Source: a virus. Taken from it: a stretch of DNA of 64,000 nt. Where the stretch lies: positions 49,645 through 113,644 of the IMG/VR virus record IMGVR_UViG_3300005826_000037. One strand, 5' to 3'. This document shows, piece after piece, positions 2,815 through 61,102 of the stretch (its first letter is position 1; every line of letters starts with the position of its first letter). The notes below the pieces were generated by a model. The model saw nothing but the letters and a program-made list of their open reading frames with translations. It ran no database searches and was not told where the DNA came from. The position numbers and the translations under genes were made by a program.

Positions 2815-5800
2815 TTATGTAGTGAACGTATAATCATCATATACCAATCCATCAACATGAACCGCATAGTAAGTTTTTTCATCAAAACTAGTACCAGTAC
2901 TATATGGGCTAATATATGCCAAAGATGTTGCAGATAATGTGTTGTTAATAATATGTATTGTTCCCTTTTTAGGCTCTTTTCTAACAAACTTAGACCCTAT
3001 ATAATCTGCAACTGATACTATTATCCAGGACGCTCTATTACCATCAATTACTACATATGAAGAAGTATATGCACAAGTATTAATTTGTTTAGCCTGAACA
3101 GATGAATACTCAGCAATTGAATATGCTAAACCTTTATAGTCAAGATTTGTAATTACATTACATGTGTTTCTAGAAATTGTTAACCCAAATTCTTTGTTGT
3201 TATCTCTTGTAATATTTGGAGATTCATTAATTATTCTTCTTCCTTCACCAATCCAATAACCAATTGCACCACAAATATTATCTTTGATTACACAATTTTG
3301 TGCAGCAAGATATGTCGGATACATAGCTTTTACATTGTTAGCAGTAGTATATGTTGTTGATGTCAAAACTATCATCTGATTTCTATCACATACATTTCTT
3401 GAAATCTCAAAATTTCTAATAGTAGGTGGTGTTTGCTCAGATATAGATGTGCTATTATTTATAACAGCTATTGCTGCTCTAAAATCATCAACAGTTCCTG
3501 AAGACTCTATATTATTAAACTTACAATTTGTTATTTTAACATTCTCTACTAAATCACCATTATCTAAATTAAAGTTTATAAATGTCAATCTGTTATCTGT
3601 ACTAATAAATGCATTTCCAAACTTAAACTCAGTATTATTTATTTCTATATTATACGCCTCTGTATTTGTAAAATACATAAATCCATTACCATTATTTATC
3701 AAATCATCAACATCATAGCTTATCTCTAAACCAGGAACATAAGTATTTTCAATATAACAATTTTTAACTAACATATCGTGAAAATAACTATTTTCTACTG
3801 AAATTGCTCTTCTAAAATTGCCACTAATTGAGCTTTCACTAAATACAAGATAGCTACTATTACCATAAAACTCATTAGTTATATAGAAAACATCACCAGG
3901 TCTATATGAACCATTATTAAAATTAACAGTAACATCACTGTTAATAAAACTGAAATTACTAATATCATCAAGATTAAATACTCTGCCACCTTCACTCGTT
4001 GGGCTTCCATAGGTTGCAGTTATACTACAGTTTTTAAAAGTTATATTGTTAGAAGATAATAACTGAGCCAATATATTATCAGTTGGCGTTGTTGATGGAT
4101 AAAAATAAATTGTACAATTTTCAAAAACTACATTGTTACTTAAAAATATTCCAAGTAGCTTCTCAAATGTAATTGTCATATTTCTTATCACAATATCATT
4201 GCCTGAGATAACTAAATTTTCACTAAAAGTTAATGATGATGTATTTCGACCATCAATATTTGCGCTATCTAATGTAATTGGTTTAGTTATTGTTTCTGCA
4301 ACTTCATTTATGATAATATTGTTATTGTGAGAACCACCATACTTTAACCAATTGAAAATTGATTCCACACTGTAAAAATTACCTTGTTTTGAATTATTGT
4401 TCAAAATAATTGTATCATTAGATTCATTATCATTTACAAATTTTCTAACATCATTCAATACAAGAGAAATACTAGAGCCGCTAACAGTAGATGAAACTAT
4501 ATAAAGAGGCGTCAAATCTTTTCTATTATTAACAAGATCAGAAAAAGTTATTGCTTCAATATAATATGAGGAAGTCGTTGCTGGATTATAAGCATTGAAG
4601 TTTCTATTTCCACTTGGAGTACTCAATATCGAATCATAATCAAGTGATGGAATTGCTTGAAAATCTCCCGAATTGCTTACACAAAGAATCCAATTTATAT
4701 TGTATAGTGTTGAGAAATAAATCTCTTTAATGATCGGTATAGATACCGTCTCATTATTCATATAGATTATTTTTCCGCCAACTAATGCAGAACCTCCAGA
4801 AAGATAGATCTGACCACTATTTGGATTAGATATAGGAGTCACATCTTGTGCATCAAATCCTTTAAAAACACCATTCTGATGAAGTAGCTTATCCGGAAGA
4901 GAAATATAATCTAAAGCTGATGTACTAAGTTCATCTTCACTAACATTTCCAAATTGTCTCTTATCAGTTACATAATTAATATAATTAGTTTCAGTATTAT
5001 ACTGACAACTAGCCACCATCATAATTTCTTTATCAGCACTAAGACTTGGAAATAATTGTATATCTACAACTTCTTCTGTTATGTTTGAAAAAGAACCATC
5101 CACAGGGAATAATACATCTATATAATCTACATTCGTCTCATCATAAAACCTTAGAACTTGACCAAGTCTTCCAGTTGTTGTAGGACCAATATGTGTTAAA
5201 TTAGTCCCATCATAAGACGCAAGATAACCATCAATCAAACCACTAGAAGAAACCAAACTATCTATATATAAAGATATCTTTGTTATCGAACTAAATTGAT
5301 ACCCTCTTAATTTGGGAGATATACCAATTAATTCCATTTTGCTTAATTCAACTGTCGTTAATCTTAATGGTATAGAATTTACTGTAATGTCACCAGTTCC
5401 ATTTGTAAATCTTCCACGTTCATGAGCAAATGTCTTTGCTTCCTCATCAACGTAAATTTCCAGATATCTCTTGAATGGGGATGCAGTAGTATAATCAGAC
5501 ATATTTTCAGAATTTACAGGCACTGAACCTGAATTGAAATAAATCCTAAAATGACCGCTACTTGCGCTTGTGTATGGTGAGGAACCTGTTCCATGTACAG
5601 CATCATATACAGTAACATCTGTGTAACAATCAACTCCACATTCTGTAAATACAACACTAGATACTACAAAACGTCCATAGTCTATATAATTAATAGTAGG
5701 AGACATCGGTTGAACCACAACAGTTGAACCTGGTCTAATATTAACTGATGATAATATATTATCTAAAATACGATATGTTGTACTTACTTTACCATTTGGT

Positions 5801-12169: not shown

Positions 12170-13009
12170 ATGGGAATAAAATTTGAAAAAAAGATATATG
12201 ATGAATCATTCGAAAAAGAAGTGGTAAAAAAATATATAGAGGTACAATCAATCAAAAAAACATCATATGAATTCGAAATATCAACAAGGCAAATAACTAA
12301 TATTTTAGATAAACATAGTATTGCACACAATATAACCAGAAAAATACAAATGAATGAAGAATATTTTGATAAAAATGATGATGAGATTATTGGAAATGAT
12401 GTTATGTACTGGGCAGGATTCATTGCTGCTGATGGAAATGTTATGAATAATTCAAATACACGAAGTTATTTTTTAACAATAAAATTATCTAAAAAAGATA
12501 AAAACCATCTTGAACAGTTCAGAAAATGTATTCAAACAAATGCTACAATAAAAGACAAAACGCATCCTTCTAAATACTATTTAGACAGATATTGGAAAAA
12601 AACTTATTCTAGCACTATTGTTCTTAATTCAAAATACCTAGTTAACTCACTAACAAAATATAACATCATCCCTAATAAAACTAAAATATATGAATTCCCA
12701 CAAATACTAAAAGAACATAAATTTGTAAATTCTTTCATAAGAGGATATTTAGATGGTGATGGCAGTATTTCTTTTAAAAACGAATCATTAAGAATCAATT
12801 TTTATGGAACACAAAATTGCCTAACAAATATATCTGAAGTTATAACAAATGAATGTGGTATATCAATACACTCTCCTTTTAAAAATAGAACCATTTATAG
12901 TTTAGAATATAATAGTCAAGATGCTGTTTTATTAGCAAAATGGTTGTACAAAAAACAAAATATATATTTGGAAAGAAAATTCAAACTTATTGAAAACCTA
13001 ATAAAATAG
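12170..13009 (+). CDS. LAGLIDADG homing endonuclease, free-standing (HE1)
   Basis: 279 aa, antisense to the structural genes. Two LAGLIDADG helices are visible: WAGFIAADG (about 81-89) and FIRGYLDGDGS (about 189-199), each ending in the acidic residue that binds catalytic metal. Residues 10-50 form a helix-turn-helix-like DNA-binding segment. The spacing gives a single-chain, two-motif enzyme of normal size. It starts 47 nt from the divergent metallopeptidase gene and has a GGAG ribosome site. It would cut intron-less or insertion-less alleles of neighbouring sequence and spread by repair. It is a relative of the genes at 14612 and 40616. Confidence 0.85.
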   Translation: MGIKFEKKIYDESFEKEVVKKYIEVQSIKKTSYEFEISTRQITNILDKHSIAHNITRKIQMNEEYFDKNDDEIIGNDVMYWAGFIAADGNVMNNSNTRSYFLTIKLSKKDKNHLEQFRKCIQTNATIKDKTHPSKYYLDRYWKKTYSSTIVLNSKYLVNSLTKYNIIPNKTKIYEFPQILKEHKFVNSFIRGYLDGDGSISFKNESLRINFYGTQNCLTNISEVITNECGISIHSPFKNRTIYSLEYNSQDAVLLAKWLYKKQNIYLERKFKLIENLIK

Positions 13010-14611: not shown

Positions 14612-15442
14612 ATGAAAAACAGACTTGAAACAAAACTAACTAAAACAATACTAGAATATGAATATAATAGATTAGGAAGTATGCAGAAGGTTGCTGACTA
14701 TCTTCAAGTATCAATAGACAGTATTTATAAATATATGAAATTATATGAAATACCATATAATAAACATTACCAAGGAATATATGTTTGTAATGAAAATTAT
14801 TTTAAAAATGATACTGAGGGATCTTTTTATTGGGCTGGATTTATAGCTGCAGATGGTTCGGTACAAAAAAGAAAATACTCTAAAATATTAAAAATAGCGT
14901 TATCACAAAATGACCATCAACACATTGAATTGTTTAAAAAATCAATCGAAAGTACACATCCTATAAAAACACATGAAGTAAAACCAAGTAAATTAGTAAA
15001 AACAAAAAACATGTGTTCTGAAATACAAATTGCAAATAATAATATCTATAATGATCTAAATCGATTTAATATAATTCCTAATAAGACAAAAGTATATACA
15101 TTTCCAGAATGGTTAATAGATCATGAATTAGTAAATCATTTTATGAGAGGATATTTTGATGGTGATGGTACTATAACTAACTGCGGTTTAGGAAAAAATA
15201 GATCTGTTATACAAAAATCATTTTCAATATTAGGGACAAAACAATTTATAGAGCAGTATATGAATACACTTATTTCCAAAACATTACTAAATGAAGTAAA
15301 AATATCACCACATTATTCTGTATTTAAATTATCTTATTCTGGAAATAACAACATCAAAACTATATATAATTTTTTATATAAAAACGCAACAATATATTTA
15401 TATAGGAAACATAATAAATTTCAAGATGATATTACTGAGTAA
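14612..15442 (+). CDS. LAGLIDADG homing endonuclease, free-standing (HE2)
   Basis: 276 aa. Motifs WAGFIAADG (about 74-82) and FMRGYFDGDGT (about 185-195) are the two catalytic LAGLIDADG helices. An N-terminal helix-turn-helix (about 8-48, MQKVADYLQVSIDSIYKYM) resembles that of the 40616 gene. It starts 40 nt from the divergent 299-aa gene without a good ribosome site, and its last 22 nt overlap the convergent 130-aa gene. Codon use is very AT-rich. The function would be selfish spread into this intergenic position. Confidence 0.85.
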   Translation: MKNRLETKLTKTILEYEYNRLGSMQKVADYLQVSIDSIYKYMKLYEIPYNKHYQGIYVCNENYFKNDTEGSFYWAGFIAADGSVQKRKYSKILKIALSQNDHQHIELFKKSIESTHPIKTHEVKPSKLVKTKNMCSEIQIANNNIYNDLNRFNIIPNKTKVYTFPEWLIDHELVNHFMRGYFDGDGTITNCGLGKNRSVIQKSFSILGTKQFIEQYMNTLISKTLLNEVKISPHYSVFKLSYSGNNNIKTIYNFLYKNATIYLYRKHNKFQDDITE

Positions 15443-19193: not shown

Positions 19194-20045
19194 TCAGGCA
19201 CCATCATTAAAACCAATATCCATCATCCTTCTAATCTCTTTTGGATCAAAATTCAAAGAATTCTTAATTAGTAATTCTTTTGGTCTAACTATTCTAAATG
19301 AAATCTGTTTTTTGCCCGGCATATCCGCACCAGAATCAAGAGCTTTATTTATCATAAGAGCCATCTTTACATCATTAGCAATAATCTCATCAGACATTAA
19401 ATCAATAACTCTCATTGCTACATGAAGTGCATTTGGCTTTTCACTATTATCAATAACAGATGAATCAGGAGATGTCATAACAATATCAATCTCTGTTGCC
19501 CCAGCATCAATAGCTGCAGCTATAGGCGTTACAGTCTTTACTCCACCATCTGTCCATAATTCTCCATAAATTTCAATTGGAGTTAAAAATACAGGAAATG
19601 CTGACGAAGCAATTACACCTTCTGCAATCTCTGGGTGCTCTTCTGTAAATAAATGATATTTACCAGTATTTAATGATACTGCTCCAACTCTAAGCTTTCT
19701 TCCACTTGCTACTATTTTCTTGCAATCAAGCGTATTACGAACCATGTCCATCAAAGGTTTACTATTATACAAACTTGGTTTCCACAAACCAGCCAATTCT
19801 CTTACAATACACCAATGCTTATAAATCTTTGAATCATCTATTGTCCCCCATAAATTAAGAAGATCTGTATATGCCCTAATCTCTTCTCCAATTTTATATT
19901 GGGACAAAAAAGAAGTATTCAACGCTCCAACAGAAACTCCACAAAGAATATCATATTTAATTTGCTGCGCATATAACCAATTATAAAGCACTCCAACCTG
20001 ATATGCCCCTTTTACGCCGCCTCCGCTAAGTACAAGCGCTCTCAT
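19194..20045 (-). CDS. Patatin-like phospholipase
   Basis: 283 aa from ATG 20045, chosen because GGAGGG lies 5 nt upstream and the start overlaps the preceding stop as ATGA; a longer start at 20057 is possible. The N-terminus MRALVLSGGGVKGAYQVGVL holds the oxyanion-hole motif GGGxKG (8-13), GVSVG has the nucleophile Ser38, and TDGG near residue 166 supplies the catalytic Asp. All parts of the patatin Ser-Asp dyad are therefore present. The enzyme should hydrolyse acyl esters of membrane lipids. There is no signal peptide, so it acts in the cytoplasm or is carried in the virion. Such a gene inside a tail operon is unusual. Confidence 0.85.
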   Translation of the reverse strand: MRALVLSGGGVKGAYQVGVLYNWLYAQQIKYDILCGVSVGALNTSFLSQYKIGEEIRAYTDLLNLWGTIDDSKIYKHWCIVRELAGLWKPSLYNSKPLMDMVRNTLDCKKIVASGRKLRVGAVSLNTGKYHLFTEEHPEIAEGVIASSAFPVFLTPIEIYGELWTDGGVKTVTPIAAAIDAGATEIDIVMTSPDSSVIDNSEKPNALHVAMRVIDLMSDEIIANDVKMALMINKALDSGADMPGKKQISFRIVRPKELLIKNSLNFDPKEIRRMMDIGFNDGA

Positions 20046-20809
20046 ACGTCCCTCCATGTTCTACCCGATAAAATATTATTAATAATAAGCGCTGTAACAT
20101 TAAATTTTTCAGCAAGCTCTTTTCTTGATAAATTATCAGGGTTTTCTTTTATATATTTGACTTCATCCAATTTTAATTTTGATAATTTTTCCTTATGTTC
20201 TAATGATAGTTTTCTGCCTTTTGTATATTGATTTCCTAAATTAGCTTTTTTAATTCCTTCTCTAGTATTAGTATGCATTTTTGTGCCACGAAAACACTCC
20301 GATAATTTCTTTTTAGTTTCTTCTGTATGATTTTTGCCATAAAAAGGATTACCTTCTCCAGAAAATTGTCTACTCAATTCTTCTTTCATTTTATTAATTG
20401 ATTCTTCCGTATGAGTTCTACCATAAAAAGGATTATTTTCTCCTTTGGTTGCATTAGATATTTTTTTTCTAGTTTCTTCGTTCATAACTGGGTGTTCACC
20501 ACCAGTAGTACAATTATAACCATTTGGAGATATACAATTAGCAGTTTTAATCCAATTACATTCTGCTTGATTTAAATCATCAATAGAAAAACATTCTTCA
20601 ACAACAGTAATTTCAAAATTTTCTATTCCATACTTTCTAATTGCTCTATGGAATGGCAATTTAGATCCGTTATTTGCCATATAAATATGGTCATTAATTC
20701 TATATTTTAATTTTTGTGTTGTTTGACCTATATAAATTTTATTAGAAATTTTACACTTAGCACAATAAATAACTCCATTTATCATTAATTCATTTTGAAT
20801 TTTCATCAT
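20042..20809 (-). CDS. GIY-YIG homing endonuclease with NUMOD repeats
   Basis: 255 aa. GVIYCAKC (12-19) and KIYIGQT (24-30) are the GIY and YIG strands, with Arg37 and Glu83 placed as in the active site. Residues about 115-175 contain two NUMOD3-type DNA-binding repeats (GENNPFYGRTHTEES, GEGNPFYGKNHTEET), and the C-terminus is a helix-turn-helix (LSRKELAEKFNVTALIINNI). It overlaps the upstream stop by ATGA and the downstream patatin start by ATGA, and its last codons provide that gene's ribosome site. This is a seamless insertion into an operon junction. Confidence 0.88.
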   Translation of the reverse strand: MMKIQNELMINGVIYCAKCKISNKIYIGQTTQKLKYRINDHIYMANNGSKLPFHRAIRKYGIENFEITVVEECFSIDDLNQAECNWIKTANCISPNGYNCTTGGEHPVMNEETRKKISNATKGENNPFYGRTHTEESINKMKEELSRQFSGEGNPFYGKNHTEETKKKLSECFRGTKMHTNTREGIKKANLGNQYTKGRKLSLEHKEKLSKLKLDEVKYIKENPDNLSRKELAEKFNVTALIINNILSGRTWRDV

Positions 20810-29348: not shown

Positions 29349-29360
29349 TTGATACGACAC

Positions 29361-29390
29361 TTGACACCCTTTTTTAAAGATTTACGCTAT
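29361..29390 (+). promoter_or_regulatory. Possible sigma70-type promoter for CCA enzyme
   Basis: TTGACA at 29361-29366 is a perfect -35 hexamer. A -10 candidate is TACGCT (29383, spacer 16) or CGCTAT (29385, spacer 18). It sits 22-29 nt ahead of the chosen start. The -10 match is poor, so this is tentative. Confidence 0.35.
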
Positions 29391-29411
29391 GCGCAAAGGC
29401 GAGGTATTTCT

Positions 29412-30608
29412 ATGAACAAAAATGCAGCTGAAGTGTGCAACATAATTCAACAACGGGGATATAAATCATACCTCGTTGGTGGTTGTGTTAGAGATTTACA
29501 ATTAAAACAAGTCCCTAAAGACTGGGATATTGCCACAAATGCATCCCCTGATGTAATTCAAGAAACATTCGATAAAACATATCCAACAGGTCTAAAACAT
29601 GGAACTGTCACTGTTTCCCTTAATGGAGAACACTTTGAGGTAACTACTTTTAGAACCGAAGGCAAATATTCAGACGGAAGAAGACCGGACTCGGTTGAAT
29701 TTGTGAACAATATAGAAGAAGACTTGGCAAGAAGAGACTTCACTATCAATGCCATGGCTTTTGACCCAATCAAAAATGAATTAGTTGATCCATTCGGTGG
29801 AGAAAAAGATCTTAAGAATGAATATCTAAAATGCGTTGGTAACCCAAATGAACGCTTTCAAGAAGACGGTCTTAGAATCATGAGGGCAGCAAGATTTGCT
29901 GCCAGATTTGGTTTTGTAATAGAATCACAAACATTCAAAGCGATGTCTAATCCTGATAATCTAAAAGTTCTCAGTAAAGTCTCAAAAGAAAGAATGAATG
30001 ATGAATTATCAAAGATTCTTATGGGATCAAACATGAGTTATGGTATCAAGATTCTATTTGACACTGGCGCTATGAGTATGGTATCTTCCCTATTAGTGCC
30101 GCACGAAGTGCGATTGTGTAAGGGAGATCTTGAGACTAGACTTGCACATCTATACCGCGATTACGATCCGAAATATGTTCTTGAAGAACTTAAAATGTTA
30201 AAATTCTCAAACAAAGAGATTAAAAGAGTTGAATTCATCCTTAATTCAAAATTTAGATATTTCAATTTATTAAAAAATAAAACAAATCTCGATTATAAAG
30301 AATTTATTGCCCATTTAAAAAACAAATCACCAGATGAATATAATTATACACTTGAACAATTTAATCATTGGGTTTGTGCAGATTATAATCTATTAAAACA
30401 TCATTATGAAGTTTTTGATAAATTTAAAGATATTGTTGTTTTTTCTAGAAAAGATTTAGCAATAAACGGAAATGATCTGATAGCTATAGGAATTACTGAT
30501 GGTAAACAAATTGGTTCAACATTGGATTATTGTTATCAATTAGTTATTAAAAATTCAAAACTAAATAATAAAAATGTTCTTCTAAACATAATAAATAATT
30601 CTGATTAA
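29412..30608 (+). CDS. cca: CCA-adding tRNA nucleotidyltransferase
   Basis: 398 aa from ATG 29412, chosen because GAGG lies 8 nt upstream; an open extension to 29349 has no site. Motif A reads LVGGCVRDLQ (GG-VRD 23-28) and DWDIAT with carboxylates Asp37 and Asp39; motif B is RRDFTINAMAFDP (107 on); motif D is EDGLRIMRAARFAARFGF (151 on). These are the class II CCA-adding or poly(A) polymerase hallmarks. The C-terminal half is a more divergent helical body. The enzyme would mature phage or host tRNAs by adding 3' CCA. It is alone on the plus strand and its stop overlaps that of the convergent HNH gene. Confidence 0.85.
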   Translation: MNKNAAEVCNIIQQRGYKSYLVGGCVRDLQLKQVPKDWDIATNASPDVIQETFDKTYPTGLKHGTVTVSLNGEHFEVTTFRTEGKYSDGRRPDSVEFVNNIEEDLARRDFTINAMAFDPIKNELVDPFGGEKDLKNEYLKCVGNPNERFQEDGLRIMRAARFAARFGFVIESQTFKAMSNPDNLKVLSKVSKERMNDELSKILMGSNMSYGIKILFDTGAMSMVSSLLVPHEVRLCKGDLETRLAHLYRDYDPKYVLEELKMLKFSNKEIKRVEFILNSKFRYFNLLKNKTNLDYKEFIAHLKNKSPDEYNYTLEQFNHWVCADYNLLKHHYEVFDKFKDIVVFSRKDLAINGNDLIAIGITDGKQIGSTLDYCYQLVIKNSKLNNKNVLLNIINNSD

Positions 30609-32427: not shown

Positions 32428-33093
32428 TCAGAATTGTGGGTTAAAGTGGAACACTGCGAAAGCATATGTTCTAGCACTTGACAATGCTGATGCTAGGTAG
32501 TTTGGAGTGGTTACCAAAGAACCGTTTGTTACGAATTCAACAAAGTGTCCAACAACAACTGTATTGGAATTTGCTAACGTTGATCCAACAGGAGTTAATT
32601 GTCCGCCCTTAAGAGTTGCTGGAGCAAATGTTAAGGAAGCACCAACTGCCAAAGTTGTATTGGTTGGTGTCAAACCATCAGCTGCTGCTGTGTCACATGC
32701 GTCCAAAGAGACTGCATAGAGACCTGGTTTATCCCAGCAAGTTACCTTGCCAGAGCCGGTTGCAGTGTGAGGTCCGAGGACAGCGCCACCTGTGGAAACT
32801 AATCCAACAGTTCCGCCAACAACAGATCCAAACAAAGTTCCATATCCAGATGTTCCTTCATCAGCCAACATCAAAGGACGAGAAGAAGTTGCGACTGTAG
32901 CAGTGACAACAGTTCTCTTATTTGGGGTTACATACCCATCAAAAACATCCCAAGATGCTTTATCTGTGGAAACACCTGTTACAACAGATGAAAAGGTTAC
33001 GATTTCTCCACCCTTGAGATATGTTGCTTCTGTATCAAGACCATCGAACTGACCCAATGGTTGAATTCCTGGTTGCAAAAGTTTTAAAGCCAT
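32428..33093 (-). CDS. Capsid decoration/stabilising protein
   Basis: 221 aa, immediately upstream of the capsid gene. It starts MALKLLQPGIQPLGQFDGLD and is a Thr/Val/Ala/Gly-rich beta protein (TVVTATVATSSRPLMLADEG, VVVGHFVEFVTNGSLVT), typical of head decoration proteins that trimerise over capsid joints. One DGY (VFDGYV), the only such copy in the head module, agreeing with an outside location. AGGTAA ribosome site. Confidence 0.6.
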   Translation of the reverse strand: MALKLLQPGIQPLGQFDGLDTEATYLKGGEIVTFSSVVTGVSTDKASWDVFDGYVTPNKRTVVTATVATSSRPLMLADEGTSGYGTLFGSVVGGTVGLVSTGGAVLGPHTATGSGKVTCWDKPGLYAVSLDACDTAAADGLTPTNTTLAVGASLTFAPATLKGGQLTPVGSTLANSNTVVVGHFVEFVTNGSLVTTPNYLASALSSARTYAFAVFHFNPQF

Positions 33094-40615: not shown

Positions 40616-41575
40616 ATGAAAAGGACAAAATTAACACCAGAATTAACTCAAAAAATAATTTATGAATATTTATCTGGACTAGATACATATCAAACTGCAA
40701 AAAAATGCACCTGTTCTCAAACATTAGTTATGAATGTACTAAAGAGAAATAATATACCTCGTCGTACAACTCAAGACTATACAAGAAAATATATAACCAA
40801 TAACAAATTTTTTGAAAATATAAATAACGAAAATAATGCGTATTTTCTAGGTCTACTATATGCTGATGGTAATAACTATGTAAGAATACCACATTCATAT
40901 GAAATTTCAATTAAACTACAAGAATGCGATAAATCTATTTTAGAAAAATTACGAGATCTACTGTGTCCAAATATGGAATTAAAACTTAAAATAGATAAAA
41001 ATACTTCAAATAAACATTATTTATTTAAAATAAATAGTAAAAAAATAAGCGAACAATTATCTTCATTAGGATGTGTTCCAAATAAAAGTTTAATTTTAAC
41101 TTTTCCTAAATTTTTAGATGATAATTTACTAAATCACTTTATAAGAGGTTATTTTGATGGAGACGGATCATTATATTGTAAACCTCAAAAAAAATCTGGA
41201 CAAATTGATTATAATTTACAACTAACTTCTTCTGATAAATTTTGTTTATCTGCTAAAAATAAAATTGAAAATATATTAAATATTCATTTTTCAACTAAAT
41301 TAGCTCATACGAAAACAAATCAAATAACAACAACATTATCTGTTGGTGGTAATAATCAAGTAGAAAAAATTCTTGATTGGATATATAAAGATGCAACTAT
41401 ATATTTACCAAGAAAATATGATAAATATATAGAATTCAAAAATTATAGAAATCAAACTTCATCTTCAAATGAAGGAAGAAAATCTTCTTCTGACACTTCT
41501 AAATCAATATCAGCACTTAATAAATCATCAGAGTCATTAATCTCTAAAACTCCATCATCAGACATATTAAATTGA
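40616..41575 (+). CDS. LAGLIDADG homing endonuclease, free-standing (HE3)
   Basis: 319 aa. Motifs FLGLLYADG (77-85) and FIRGYFDGDGS (about 177-187) with an N-terminal helix-turn-helix. The recognisable enzyme ends at about residue 281 (ATIYLPRKYDKYIEFKN); the last 40 or so residues are Ser/Lys-rich and are simply the antisense of the acidic end of the 134-aa gene, with which it overlaps by 124 nt. It is 56 nt from the divergent 230-aa gene. No good ribosome site. Confidence 0.85.
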   Translation: MKRTKLTPELTQKIIYEYLSGLDTYQTAKKCTCSQTLVMNVLKRNNIPRRTTQDYTRKYITNNKFFENINNENNAYFLGLLYADGNNYVRIPHSYEISIKLQECDKSILEKLRDLLCPNMELKLKIDKNTSNKHYLFKINSKKISEQLSSLGCVPNKSLILTFPKFLDDNLLNHFIRGYFDGDGSLYCKPQKKSGQIDYNLQLTSSDKFCLSAKNKIENILNIHFSTKLAHTKTNQITTTLSVGGNNQVEKILDWIYKDATIYLPRKYDKYIEFKNYRNQTSSSNEGRKSSSDTSKSISALNKSSESLISKTPSSDILN

Positions 41576-54258: not shown

Positions 54259-57192
54259 TTAAAAACGTCTCTGTATAAATCCTGTCATTACTCTTGGTTT
54301 ATTTACATCATCAAAACTTCCTTCTTGAAGAAGTGGATTATTATTTGTAAATCCTTGTGTAATTAAGAACTTATATGCAAGATAAGCATTTAATAAAGCC
54401 ATAAATCCATCATTAGGTGTACTTCCTTTAACATAATGTGCAACAGGATCTGCTCCAGTTTTAGATATTGATGGTTTTATCTCCATACTTGCACAATGTT
54501 CAACAAGCCATGCTATTTTTTCATAATCACCAAATGGAAATCTTATTTGTCCCTTCTTCATTTGTTCATATAACTCTCTAATATAATAATCTCTTTCAAA
54601 AACTATTTCCTTAGGAAATGCTTCTGCATTATATTTTACAAACTTATTAACTTTTGGATGTGCACGAGATACAATATAGCGGTCACCATATGATTTATGA
54701 AGCGTTTCGGAAAAGTCTTGAGAATATCCAATGTCTCCTACTGCCAAATCAACACTATATTGTCTAAGAATTTGATCTATTATACCTTTCTTGCTTTCAA
54801 AATCATTTCTTTTAAACTTTGTAGCAAATTCAATAGACAATAATCCAGGACCTTTTGCAGCCAATACAACAGCAGTACTATATGATTGCCCTCTAACTAC
54901 TGCTTTTTCTGGATTAGCTAGTTGCTCAAGATCTCCTCTCTTACCATAGTCAATTCCAAGAAGAACCATATGTTCATCTTTTGGTGAAATTCTAGATTTA
55001 AACTTTCTACCAATATCACCACAAGCTTCTGCAATCTCATCAGGAGTAATTGGGCTGCTGTCACCTTGATAAAATTCTCCCAATACTTCTGTATTATATA
55101 TTCTATCAGTATTAATTGGGTGCTTACCAGGCATTTCATTATCGATGTCAAGTCTCGTAAACTTAGGCATATATAATTGATTAATGTGAAAACCAATCAT
55201 CTTGCATTCAGGATCATTATGATCTTTAAGAGCTACCCATTTACCTCTATCAGCAGCTGCTAGTTTATCTTGTTCTTTTCCACAATGAGGGCATCTAACT
55301 ATCTTATCGTAAATCCAAATATCTTTCCAATCGTCAGATCCTGGAGTATATAGTGGGAAAAGTTTATCACAACCTTCACATCCCAAATAATAATATTGTT
55401 GTGAAGATGTCATCCACATCTTATAGAAGTCAGAACCTTTACTACGTGGTGTTCCAAAATAAACTTGCACACCCTTTGTTGGTCTTCCATATTTTGCGTT
55501 GGTAAGAATCTTTAATGCATTTCCCATTGCGAGCCCGGTTGTTCTCTGTACCTCATCAAAAAATATGATGTCCGCAGTATTATGTGTTGGAATATATGAT
55601 TTAGTTACAATAAATAAACCATTGTGACTATCTACAGTTATACAACGCATAGGTACAGAATTAATAGGTTTGATGTCAACAATAAATCTATGTGTACTTT
55701 TAGTTGTAAGTATCTGCTTAAGATTTTTTAATTTTCTTTTAAGTCTAAATACCGGTAAATTAGTAATAAACCTAACTCGATACTTATCTTTATATTTTAT
55801 ACCATATCTCCAACTTTCTCGTTTATATATCTTTGCTTTAATACCTAAACTTCTTACTAAATCAAAAACCTGATAAGCTAAATTTTTATCAACTTGAACA
55901 AACTCTACGTTACCATTTTTATCACAATGACCATCACTATCGAGTAGCCCCTGTAATAATGCAAGTCTTTGTTTGATAGAAGATTGCATATATAAATCAG
56001 GGATATGTTTATTATATAATTCATTAAACTTTTTATGACTATTTTTAAGTAAACCAAGTTTACGCAAATCGGACGTTAACCCTTTTACACGATAAGAATT
56101 TGATTTAGATACCCCAAACTTACCACAATGATTAATAGAAGATGGTATAACTCGACTATCAAAACCTTCCAATATTTCTGGATCAGCAGACTCTATTCTT
56201 CCAGAACCATCTCCATCACCAAGCCATAACCCTAATAAATAAGGATCTATAATTAATTTTTTTTCATCATATTGTAATGGTTTACAATTTGGTATGGAAT
56301 GATTTGTCTCCCCAAGATGATGTAGTGTATTTAGTATCTCTTCTGTTGTTTTTATTGATGGATTTGGTGGATTTTGTATTTTTCCTCTTTCAAATTTACT
56401 TAAAGACACGCGATCATTTCTAGTATATGTTAACCATAAATGATCTTTACAAGCATCAACTGTAGTTCCATCATCAAAAAATACCCTATATGAAACAGGG
56501 TTTAAATCAATTGGATGCACTTTAGTAATTTTGCATACCTCTCCATTTTCATCAAATAATTCACTGCCCACTTTAAGATCAATTAATTTTACAAATCCAT
56601 TTGGTGTTGGAATATCTGTATCTAAAGCTAGCATTCTTCCCATCAACCTATCAGCATCAATTCCCGTGGACTCAATCCATAAATGATTTCCTCCAATGAA
56701 TTGTTTAAAATGTAAAGAGTCATTTGTTGGACTTGTTGTGTCCAACAAAGATTGCATATATGACTTTATCTTACCTCCCTTTTTAGCATTAGCATCTTCT
56801 TCTTTAATCAATGATGTGGACATCATTTGATTTAATTTTGTCTTAGAATATGCAGCAGCTAACTCTAACAAAGGAAAAGCATGAATAATTCTTATTGGAG
56901 GTTTTTCTGAAGTACCAAATAATCCTGAACCCATAAAATACATTTCAAGAGCACAAGCCATAGTTGTACCTCCAACCTGGCGTCCCTTAACCATGATTAC
57001 TGGTTTTGATTCTGGCTCTAATGCCTTAAGTCCAATATAACGGTATATATCTGCAAATGGTTTATAACCATTGCCACTTAAACGAAAAGGCTCCCCCTCA
57101 AGAGTGAGATACTTTTCGCAAAACATAACAGGATCAATCCTCATGAGCTGATCCTTAAGCGTATTAAATACGTCTAATCTTGTATCCTTCAT
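54259..57192 (-). CDS. Large terminase subunit (GpA-like) interrupted by intein
   Basis: 977 aa precursor; 625 aa after removal of a 352-aa intein (residues 187-538). The ATPase shows a P-loop-like VKGRQVGGTT (69-77) and Walker B ADIIFFDEVQR right after the intein. A zinc ribbon (CEGCDKLF ... CPHCGKEQD) and nuclease-like acidic strands (LLGIDYGKRGD, AVGDIGYSQDF, GSTPNDGFMALL) follow, as in GpA-type terminases. It packages DNA into the prohead through the portal encoded next. The start lacks a strong ribosome site. Confidence 0.88.
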   Translation of the reverse strand: MKDTRLDVFNTLKDQLMRIDPVMFCEKYLTLEGEPFRLSGNGYKPFADIYRYIGLKALEPESKPVIMVKGRQVGGTTMACALEMYFMGSGLFGTSEKPPIRIIHAFPLLELAAAYSKTKLNQMMSTSLIKEEDANAKKGGKIKSYMQSLLDTTSPTNDSLHFKQFIGGNHLWIESTGIDADRLMGRMLALDTDIPTPNGFVKLIDLKVGSELFDENGEVCKITKVHPIDLNPVSYRVFFDDGTTVDACKDHLWLTYTRNDRVSLSKFERGKIQNPPNPSIKTTEEILNTLHHLGETNHSIPNCKPLQYDEKKLIIDPYLLGLWLGDGDGSGRIESADPEILEGFDSRVIPSSINHCGKFGVSKSNSYRVKGLTSDLRKLGLLKNSHKKFNELYNKHIPDLYMQSSIKQRLALLQGLLDSDGHCDKNGNVEFVQVDKNLAYQVFDLVRSLGIKAKIYKRESWRYGIKYKDKYRVRFITNLPVFRLKRKLKNLKQILTTKSTHRFIVDIKPINSVPMRCITVDSHNGLFIVTKSYIPTHNTADIIFFDEVQRTTGLAMGNALKILTNAKYGRPTKGVQVYFGTPRSKGSDFYKMWMTSSQQYYYLGCEGCDKLFPLYTPGSDDWKDIWIYDKIVRCPHCGKEQDKLAAADRGKWVALKDHNDPECKMIGFHINQLYMPKFTRLDIDNEMPGKHPINTDRIYNTEVLGEFYQGDSSPITPDEIAEACGDIGRKFKSRISPKDEHMVLLGIDYGKRGDLEQLANPEKAVVRGQSYSTAVVLAAKGPGLLSIEFATKFKRNDFESKKGIIDQILRQYSVDLAVGDIGYSQDFSETLHKSYGDRYIVSRAHPKVNKFVKYNAEAFPKEIVFERDYYIRELYEQMKKGQIRFPFGDYEKIAWLVEHCASMEIKPSISKTGADPVAHYVKGSTPNDGFMALLNAYLAYKFLITQGFTNNNPLLQEGSFDDVNKPRVMTGFIQRRF
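55579..56634 (-). mobile_element. Terminase intein with LAGLIDADG domain, class-3-like
   Basis: 352 residues between extein sequences DADRLMGR and TADIIFFDE, so it splits the ATPase just before Walker B. Block A is MLALDTDIPTPNGF, with Met and no Cys or Ser nucleophile. Block B includes KDHLWLT (Trp at B:12), block F has MRCITVDS (Cys at F:4), and block G is IPTHN with Thr at G:5; this is the WCT triplet of class 3 inteins. The homing domain shows LLGLWLGDGDG and LLQGLLDSDG. Both splice-junction and endonuclease motifs look intact. Confidence 0.85.
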
Positions 57193-58879: not shown

Positions 58880-59635
58880 TTAAATCCACATCTTATCATA
58901 AAAAGTATTTCCTGAATCTGTGGTTCCATATCTTGGGTCCTGCTCATACAAATTATCTAAATCTGAAGCAGGCTCTATTCCTTGTGGCAAACCTAAAACA
59001 GGTGGTTCTTTAGGGTTAAGAGTTTGAAGTTTTTTATCCATAATCTCTTGTAACTTAGCAATATAGTCATGGATATTATCACTGTCATAATTTGTTCCAA
59101 AATCTAAATCAGTAGGTGGTTTTCCTTCGAAATCATATTCGGGCATATATTTATCTAATAACCCACCAATTGGAACAGAATTACTAACAGTTCCACTATC
59201 TCCTAAAACTGGAGATGATTTAATTTGTTCATCTACAAGAAAATCTATATCATTTTCATCGCAGCCTAGCGCAATAAGTAGAGCAACTCTTCTAACAGCT
59301 CTCTTATGTTTTTTCTCTTTTGCCTTTGATATACTACCATCGTCATATTTGTATAAATCTTCCGCCTTGTATTTTTCTTTATTCTTCTTTTTCTTTTCTC
59401 TGAAATCAGATACACTTTTGTATTCATCCATATGCTGATACAATCCGGTACCAGGACCATGCTTTGCTGGTCCATCGACACCTTCTGTTTCATATAGATC
59501 ATAATTTTTAAACAAAGGTTCTTTAAATCTTGGCTGCATAACTAAAGCAGGCTCAGACTTATATTTTTTCTTCTTAGGTGTTGGTTCATTTTCTTTTCCA
59601 CCACCTTGAAAATAAGCAGATTTACTTTGAGGCAT
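58880..59635 (-). CDS. YFQG/EPTP-motif head protein
   Basis: 251 aa. The N-terminus MPQSKSAYFQGGGKENEPTP, then KKKKYKSEP, repeats the unit found twice in the protease-scaffold protein (YFQGAEGDEPTPGKPKY and YFQQGEKNPEEPTPGKPKY). The rest is Lys/Glu-rich helices with acidic loops and a region GVDGPAKHGPGTGLY also reminiscent of GPVEGLYPGD in the scaffold. Strong AGGTGG ribosome site. Probably a head core or portal-associated protein; the shared motif may be a maturation or docking site. Confidence 0.5.
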   Translation of the reverse strand: MPQSKSAYFQGGGKENEPTPKKKKYKSEPALVMQPRFKEPLFKNYDLYETEGVDGPAKHGPGTGLYQHMDEYKSVSDFREKKKKNKEKYKAEDLYKYDDGSISKAKEKKHKRAVRRVALLIALGCDENDIDFLVDEQIKSSPVLGDSGTVSNSVPIGGLLDKYMPEYDFEGKPPTDLDFGTNYDSDNIHDYIAKLQEIMDKKLQTLNPKEPPVLGLPQGIEPASDLDNLYEQDPRYGTTDSGNTFYDKMWI

Positions 59636-60395
59636 TTATACCACCTCTGATATGTTTTATATAATAAGGATAAACTTCTTTAGTAATAGGAATGTAATTC
59701 CACAAATTCATCTTTGTTAAATTGTGCTCAGCACGGTCAGCATCCCAAGTGAAAGCCTCATTTAGCTTCTTAGACAAGGAACTCTGAGATGAATCCTGAA
59801 CTGATTGTGGATTTTTCTTAACAAATTCAATTATTGAATTATCTATATCAAAATTTAGCTTTGATGATAGGTATACCGATCTAATTACTCTATTCTTATT
59901 AGAAGTTAATGTTATTTCTGGAGCCAAACATGTTTTAATCTTCTTTTCTTTTATATCTTTGAACCCTCTATTAGTAGGGTCAATAATATTCTTTAGATCT
60001 AAAGATAATAAAAGAGCGTTGCAGGTAAAATCCCTACTAAACATCTCTCTTTGGAAATTAGTGGGCTCCTTAATTCCAAGTTTTTGTAAGTATAAATCTA
60101 TATTTGGTATTACAAAATTTGATGAAAAATCTAATTTTAGATCTCCAATAAAAACAGTACTATGACCATCTGGCATTGTCTTTCTACTTACCTTATATTG
60201 CTTCCCAAGTTTATCAGCAAAAGCTTCAGATAAGTAATCTATTGTCTTATCACCAGTAGTAATATCAATATCTGAAACCTTCTCTAATTGATCCAGATAC
60301 TTATCCCTCGGCGTACCTCCACATATCATAGGATATGAAGCTTTTATATCTATAGCTGTTTTGCCTAATAAATATAATAATTCTTTTAGTTTCAT
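59622..60395 (-). CDS. Divergent CCA-adding-like nucleotidyltransferase
   Basis: 257 aa from ATG 60395, which overlaps the preceding stop as ATGA with AGGTGG upstream. It keeps polymerase-beta motifs: CGGTPRD (25-31), SDIDITTGD with Asp42 and Asp44, LKLDF with a third acidic residue near 89, RDFTCNALLLSLD (121 on), and NRVIRSVYLSSKLNF (168 on). These correspond to class II CCA-adding/poly(A) polymerase motifs, but the protein is shorter than a complete CCA enzyme (257 vs about 400 aa). It is embedded in the head operon. Target RNA or protein unknown. Confidence 0.7.
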   Translation of the reverse strand: MKLKELLYLLGKTAIDIKASYPMICGGTPRDKYLDQLEKVSDIDITTGDKTIDYLSEAFADKLGKQYKVSRKTMPDGHSTVFIGDLKLDFSSNFVIPNIDLYLQKLGIKEPTNFQREMFSRDFTCNALLLSLDLKNIIDPTNRGFKDIKEKKIKTCLAPEITLTSNKNRVIRSVYLSSKLNFDIDNSIIEFVKKNPQSVQDSSQSSLSKKLNEAFTWDADRAEHNLTKMNLWNYIPITKEVYPYYIKHIRGGINASK

Positions 60396-61102
60396 ATATG
60401 TGTCCACCTTTTTCTATTTACTATTTGATTAATAGTATTAGGTTTAACATTATATAATTTAGCTAATTCAGTTTGAGAATATTTACCACTATTCCACTTA
60501 TCTCGTATATCTAATACATCTTTTTCAGTTAATTTAGCACTAGATTGATTGCTCCCCCTACATTTGCAACTTATTACTTTTTTTAATTCTTCTGAAATTT
60601 CTCTATTTTTAAGAAAATTAACAACCTCTTCTGAATGTGTTTTGCCATAAAATCCATTATTTTCACCACTAACAGATTTAGATATTTTAGATTTTATATC
60701 ATCAGATATTTTTTTTCCATAATTGTGGTTATTTTCTCCTCGTATTTTATCACGAGACTCTTCAGACCATTTCACCCCAGATGTACCTTCACCACCATCT
60801 GTTAAATTCATACCAAAATTATAATCATTGGAGTTAAACTTTTCAATCCATTTTTTTTCTTTTTCAAAAGCTTCAATTTCTGTTAAGCAATTCTCCAAAA
60901 CTTCAATATTAAAATTATAAACACCATATTTATTTATTGATTTATGTAAATATTGATATGCTTTTCTTTCTTTATTTTTAGCCACACTAATATGACGCTT
61001 CCATCTTTTTTCTATATTAGATGTTTTTCCAATATATACTTTACCATTCATTAAATTGGTAATCTTATATATACAAAAATTATTAAGGTCTCGTAGCTTC
61101 AT
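60392..61102 (-). CDS. GIY-YIG homing endonuclease
   Basis: 236 aa. FCIYKITN and KVYIGKT are the GIY and YIG strands, followed by Arg33 and TEIEAFEKEKKWI with the catalytic Glu. NUMOD3-like repeats (GENNHNYGKKIS, GENNGFYGKTHSEE) and a C-terminal helix-turn-helix (YSQTELAKLYNVKPNTINQI) give DNA specificity. As with the gene at 20042, the stop overlaps the next start as ATGA and its final codons carry the next ribosome site. Likely a mobile insertion in the 604-aa/nucleotidyltransferase junction. Confidence 0.88.
   Translation of the reverse strand: MKLRDLNNFCIYKITNLMNGKVYIGKTSNIEKRWKRHISVAKNKERKAYQYLHKSINKYGVYNFNIEVLENCLTEIEAFEKEKKWIEKFNSNDYNFGMNLTDGGEGTSGVKWSEESRDKIRGENNHNYGKKISDDIKSKISKSVSGENNGFYGKTHSEEVVNFLKNREISEELKKVISCKCRGSNQSSAKLTEKDVLDIRDKWNSGKYSQTELAKLYNVKPNTINQIVNRKRWTHI

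Follow-up and report, generated by a model that had tools for sequence, protein, structure and literature searches.

Class 3 inteins, one of the less common chemical types of intein, are defined by a first residue (A:1) that is not a nucleophile, combined with Trp at B:12, Cys at F:4 and Thr at G:5 (PMC3196547, PMC5050341, PMC7891396), and 1701 of them have been reported, 82.5% with LAGLIDADG motifs (PMC7891396). In the DnaBi1 intein of Mycobacterium smegmatis, the corresponding triplet is Trp67-Cys118-Thr137, and the DnaB protein of this organism is known to hold inteins of both class 3 and class 1 (PMC6195587). For mycobacteriophages, PMC5050341 lists terminase inteins in no families other than terminase_1 and terminase_6, apart from one terminase-like protein. 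Competition between neighbouring inteins is known from the haloarchaeal MCM protein (PMC10643990).

The interrupted terminase gene and its setting

The DNA analysed here, referred to as the window, is a stretch of 64,000 nt taken from a virus record of 113,644 bp. The minus-strand ORF at 54259–57192 (977 aa, 977 codons without a stop) encodes a terminase large subunit with a GpA-type ATPase, as recognised by Pfam (GpA_ATPase, PF05876; E = 3.4e-9, 37.2 bits against a cut-off of 25.6) and by PHROG, whose terminase family phrog_675 was matched by both the C-extein (3e-42) and the N-extein (8.9e-9). The next gene downstream of the terminase matches portal families, and so the context is that of a phage head-packaging module. 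The N-extein of 186 aa (56635–57192, minus strand), delimited by tblastn to 80 relatives, contains the Walker A-like motif VKGRQVGGTT (56965–56988), which lacks the usual Lys before Thr; a related terminase (L096) reads GRQVGKT, and the Walker A of lambda gpA is likewise deviant, with an early Lys. The C-extein (54259–55578, minus strand), delimited by alignment to relatives, begins with TADIIFFDE and carries Walker B.

The 352-aa intein between them (55579–56634, minus strand; terminase residues 187–538) was delimited by means of empty alleles. When viral_contigs was searched with the C-extein alone, the best 80 of 143 relatives (L005–L084) had 69–79% identity. In 72 of the 80, nothing separated the N-extein match from the C-extein match (a gap of 0 nt), and the join fell at one and the same codon boundary, as in GIDADRLMGR/TADIIFFDEVQ; the N-extein ended in DADRLMGR or a variant and was followed by TAD or a variant. 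Because the empty alleles join at exactly that codon, Met1 and Asn352 are fixed as the intein ends independently of any motif. The intein boundaries of the initial annotation were thus exact, and the inspection of intein-free relatives at the DRLMGR/TADII junction that it had suggested gave a direct join. Its placement of the element just before Walker B also held, since IIFFDE starts at residue 4 of the C-extein and the intein directly precedes this motif. An intein at this position, hereafter site a, was present in three of the best 80 of 143 relatives (L010, L035 and L084). Additionally, tblastn with the intein as query (E ≤ 1e-3) matched 749 phage records, so the intein is no chance pattern. 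A further intein of the same family was not found in the 113.6-kb record, which is possibly itself a fragment, and the search for cellular terminase relatives in genome_contigs gave 10 pattern matches and no true relative, with patterns that catch close relatives only. We consider it very probable that the element is bifunctional, a class 3 intein that also carries a LAGLIDADG homing endonuclease and interrupts a GpA-type terminase between Arg(−1) and Thr(+1), just upstream of Walker B.

Several other features of the window were recorded. In 15 virion-like ORFs (6096 aa; 2815–28000 on the minus strand, and also 32428–33093), the tripeptide Asp-Gly-Tyr was counted 45 times, against 2.1 occurrences expected from composition, and 14 other ORFs (7342 aa) have none; the ORFs were grouped by eye after the repeats had been seen. 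Its codons are mixed (GATGGATAT 16 times, GATGGTTAT 15 times), and so selection seems to act at the protein level. On the plus strand, opposite to the virion genes, a single endonuclease family (phrog_4645) is represented by three free-standing members at 12170–13009, 14612–15442 and 40616–41575, and two ORFs at 20042–20809 and 60392–61102 (minus strand) look GIY-YIG endonuclease-like by eye. Nucleotidyltransferase genes resembling poly(A) polymerase or CCA-adding enzymes were noted at 29349–30608 (plus strand, by eye) and at 59622–60407 (minus strand; Pfam PolyA_pol, 6.6e-11), and tRNA genes were not found within the 64-kb window.

The homing endonuclease domain and mobility

Motif 1 of the LAGLIDADG endonuclease (block C, LLGLWLGDG, 56212–56238, minus strand) was read from the sequence, and motif 2 (block E, LLQGLLDSDG, 55930–55959, minus strand) from the sequence and Pfam. 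The Asp is kept in each, so both are intact, as had been annotated. Two Pfam endonuclease profiles matched the terminase ORF, LAGLIDADG_3 with an E-value of 1.3e-10 and Hom_end with one of 2e-6. An AlphaFold model built from a 28-row alignment (mean pLDDT 92.8, pTM 0.91) showed the LAGLIDADG fold, matching I-DmoI in Foldseek and PI-SceI in VIA-align; the whole model was aligned to the PI-SceI entries with Z of 24.6–27.3 and 16–19% identity over the match. In the proposed homing step, this domain would cut intein-free terminase alleles at the junction, and repair would copy the intein in.

The distribution of site-a inteins bears on this step. On a 98-row extein tree, site-a occupancy needs at least eight changes, and the window lies in an eight-row clade (SH-aLRT 100) that otherwise consists of six empty alleles and one double allele. 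Among 12 site-a inteins, intein identity exceeded extein identity in 50 of the 66 pairs; for the window and L090, the values were 61% and 49%, respectively. At the same time, the two identities are correlated across the site-a pairs (Spearman 0.57), and so part of the intein history may be vertical. The patchy occupancy and the identity excess are consistent with horizontal homing mixed with inheritance, on an extein tree that is blind to gain versus loss.

That the intein still splices but no longer moves, either because its endonuclease is inactive or because no empty target is left, is quite possible, if somewhat doubtful. Decay at the same site is a fact: L010 lacks both LAGLIDADG Asp residues, L084 lacks one of them, and L002, L128 and L130 carry mini-inteins of 139–153 aa without an endonuclease. 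However, both Asp residues are kept in 11 of the 13 full-length site-a inteins (the window counted), the model fits PI-SceI, and empty targets are plentiful, as the 72 of the best 80 of 143 relatives attest. Continued mobility of the window intein, which the initial annotation had raised, is a reasonable inference, and we hold with moderate confidence that it may still home.

Signature residues and the predicted splicing pathway

All residues that define class 3 are present in the window intein, each encoded on the minus strand. Met1 (56632–56634) leaves A:1 without a nucleophile; Trp67 (B:12, 56434–56436), the W of the WCT triplet, lies in HLW and is invariant in the 28-row alignment, as is His65 (B:10, 56440–56442); Cys331 (F:4, 55642–55644), the C of the triplet and the predicted first nucleophile, lies in RCI; Thr350-His351-Asn352 (G:5–G:7, 55579–55587) supply the T and the terminal Asn; and Thr+1 (55576–55578), placed by the junction alignment to relatives, is the predicted second nucleophile. 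The Trp, Cys and Thr named in the initial annotation thus occupy the published class 3 positions. Reading the Thr of the triplet as Thr+1 was rejected, the published placement being G:5, just before the penultimate His (PMC3196547, PMC5050341, PMC7891396).

Fifteen columns are invariant in the 28-row alignment, and His65, Trp67, Cys331, Thr350, His351 and Asn352 are among them. In a tally of 61 distinct relatives, Trp was found in 59/61, Cys in 61/61 and the THN ending in 60/61, the Trp count being favoured because most of these relatives were retrieved by block B patterns; the +1 residue was Thr in 47 of the 61 and Ser in the other 14. Among 15 phage-record inteins obtained by pattern-free tblastn, one (L144) lacks the Trp.

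The alignment with class 3 inteins that had been proposed as a check agrees with this reading: signature positions match, and a sequence comparison with solved structures ranks three class 3 inteins first, namely 6bs8 (1.5e-10), 6rix (3.9e-25 with a profile) and 6riy. Trp67 aligns with W67 of 6bs8 free of gaps, and the numbering up to this residue is identical to that of M. smegmatis DnaBi1. Judged from these residues, assignment to class 3 is supported by the complete published signature.

Two positions that might look irregular were considered and set aside. Met1 is no oddity: the same-site inteins L010, L084 and L130 have it, as do many class 3 inteins located in P-loops, and Gln1 is also common among class 3 relatives. 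The block F His (F:13) is Gly in the window (SHNGL) and His in L084, L035 and L002 (SPSHL); its absence is not decisive as a defect, the position being variable across class 3 relatives, and the AceL NrdHF intein splices well despite lacking this His (PMC7891396).

By likeness to proven class 3 inteins, we assign the class 3 splicing mechanism with high confidence. In the predicted pathway, Cys331 would attack the Arg-Met1 peptide bond, leaving the N-extein held as a thioester, while His65, held by Thr350, would activate the N-junction. The N-extein would then pass to Thr+1 by transesterification, and cyclisation of Asn352 would release the intein. The exteins would thereby be joined as DADRLMGR-TADIIFFDE, like the sequence that intein-free relatives encode directly. 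Since splicing would rebuild the segment leading into Walker B, the terminase would probably be inactive as a packaging ATPase if left unspliced, and the claim of the initial annotation that packaging depends on splicing is a reasonable one.

The residue at position 1 is also what would suggest a broken class 1 intein, in which Cys1 had mutated to Met and splicing had been lost, and a non-splicing class 3-like pseudogene is indeed known (Arsp-FB24 Arth_1007; PMC3196547). This reading is very improbable: the Arth_1007 pseudogene lacks the Cys at F:4 that the window intein has, Met1 recurs in the same-site L010 and L084 and in many class 3 relatives that interrupt other proteins, and the terminase is otherwise intact, with an open reading frame. 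The annotated claim that Met1 excludes class 1 chemistry stands insofar as class 1 has Cys, Ser or Thr at this position; Met1 alone does not separate class 3 from class 2, which has class 1-like motifs and no WCT, and it is the block F Cys, here as part of a complete WCT triplet, that does so. Class 2-like chemistry, in which Thr+1 would itself attack the N-junction and the block F Cys would be incidental, is scarcely credible, for although class 2 inteins also lack a position-1 nucleophile (PMC3196547), they have been found only in KlbA according to the same source, and Cys331 is invariant in 28/28 rows and in 61/61 distinct relatives.

Predicted structure and phylogeny agree with the class 3 assignment. 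In VIA-align, the model matched 6riy with Z 21.6 (130/130 residues, 1.6 Å) and 6bs8 with Z 21.2 (125/125 residues, 1.2 Å), compared with 19.1 for the engineered WCT gp41-1 (6riz), 18.7 for class 1 gp41-1 (6qaz), 17.4 for Ssp DnaB (1mi8) and 15.8 for the unusual class 3 intein AceL NrdHF. The class 3 structures 6bs8, 6rix and 6riy are closest to the predicted fold among the chains that consist of a splicing domain only, and the Z differences are supportive of class 3, being no proof of mechanism. In a splicing-domain tree, the window groups within the class 3 set of 27 starred rows (SH-aLRT 99), on the side of 6bs8 and 6rix, and class 3 is split from the site-b class 1 inteins described below (SH-aLRT 100); the tree has 116 columns, most of its other forks are weak, and its outgroup is one class 1 family, which places monophyly of the whole of class 3 outside its reach.

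A second thiol is predicted in the active-site region. Cys62 (B:7; 56449–56451, minus strand, from the alignment), beside the N-junction, takes the place of the Asp, Gly or Ser found at B:7 in characterised class 3 inteins. According to PMC7891396, class 3 inteins with functional characterisation had Gly or Asp here, and in AceL NrdHF the residue is close enough to the scissile bond to form a hydrogen bond with it. Cys62 is invariant in the 28 rows, which include L010, L084 and L035, retrieved without using the intein. Cys was found at B:7 in 3/15 phage-record inteins obtained by tblastn and in 41/46 viral_contigs inteins, the latter fraction being inflated because the search pattern included that Cys. 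Position 48, the redox Cys in DnaBi1, is Ser in the window intein. A possible role for Cys62 is that of a redox partner of Cys331 (in a disulfide) or an auxiliary thiol, a testable idea only; its conservation suggests a possible redox switch unlike the Cys48-Cys118 one of mycobacterial DnaBi1.

Inteins around Walker B in relatives and comparison with known systems

Some relatives carry a second intein at site b, nine residues (27 bp) downstream of site a. Of 113 terminase loci, a total that counts copies as well as the window, 73 have neither site occupied, 16 are occupied at a only, 17 at b only and 7 at both, and these counts come partly from searches with the inteins themselves and are unusable for comparing double occupancy with chance. 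Among the best 80 of 143 C-extein relatives, near-copies counted, site a is occupied in three, site b in six and both in one. The seven double loci represent five distinct contigs (L010, L086, L093, L102 and L130), which occupy separate places on the extein tree. Each has a class 3 intein at site a (GR/TAD) and an unrelated class 1 intein at site b (FDE/C...HN/C); in L010, the two lie at 1856–2911 and 2939–4000. The site-b intein is class 1 by its residues, namely Cys1, a YD(I/L)E block F, HN and Cys+1. The nine extein residues left between the two inteins are TADVIFFDE, TVDCIFFDE, TADVLFFDE or TVDCALFDE. In this small sample, at least one endonuclease is lost or mutated in 4/5 doubles, and L093 has both motif pairs intact. 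The window terminase carries one intein only.

Walker B of this terminase family could be a two-intein hot spot, with the window allele as the one-intein stage of a cycle; we put this forward tentatively, as a nearly even call. If it is true, the target of each endonuclease would overlap the insertion point of the other, so that one invasion should destroy the other target; double alleles would have to arise stepwise, and a nine-residue peptide would have to be freed by two splicing chemistries to rebuild Walker B. A search of the accessible open-licence literature found no report of an intein pair this close.

Related inteins were also seen at other positions. In L096 (316–1389), a terminase of the same family is interrupted at Walker A (GRQVGK/T) by a class 3 intein about 52% identical to that of the window. 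The 353-kb phage contig IMGVR_UViG_3300028735_000003 (L085, L155, L104 and L164) holds at least four related inteins, with two terminase inteins, a class 3 intein after a P-loop (GVGK/M) and a site-b-like class 1 intein at the Walker B-like LLDE/CQ of another protein.

Among known systems, the DnaB1 inteins of M. smegmatis (6bs8/6own) and M. chimaera (6rix/6riy) share with the window intein the lack of a position-1 nucleophile, His65, Trp67, RC(I/V) and THN, and their splicing domains superpose on the window model at 1.2–1.6 Å over the whole chain. Like PI-SceI, the yeast VMA intein, the window intein unites a splicing domain with a LAGLIDADG endonuclease, whereas PI-SceI is a class 1 intein. 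The M. smegmatis mini-intein DnaBi1 interrupts the P-loop of DnaB and has Ala1, Cys48, Asp62 and Ser+1 (PMC6195587); the window intein differs from it in Met1, Ser48, Cys62, Thr+1 and the presence of an endonuclease domain. The mycobacteriophage inteins TerL1-c and TerL1-e are, like that of the window, class 3 inteins in the ATPase domain of a terminase, TerL1-e being located in Walker B; their host proteins belong to the Terminase_1 family (PMC5050341), whereas the window terminase is GpA-type and is interrupted three residues before the Walker B strand. So, class 3 inteins in terminases were already known, and the GpA-type host extends their range modestly.

The haloarchaeal MCM-a and MCM-d inteins, in which one ATPase gene has two inteins and empty, single and double alleles occur (PMC10643990), parallel L010, L086, L093, L102 and L130. 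They reside in an archaeal helicase, whereas the phage doubles pair class 3 with class 1 only nine residues apart. At a single codon boundary, related phages offer a natural series of alleles that are empty, full, decayed in the endonuclease, reduced to a mini-intein or double, and with it the homing cycle and the competition of neighbouring inteins can be tested in a gene for phage DNA packaging.
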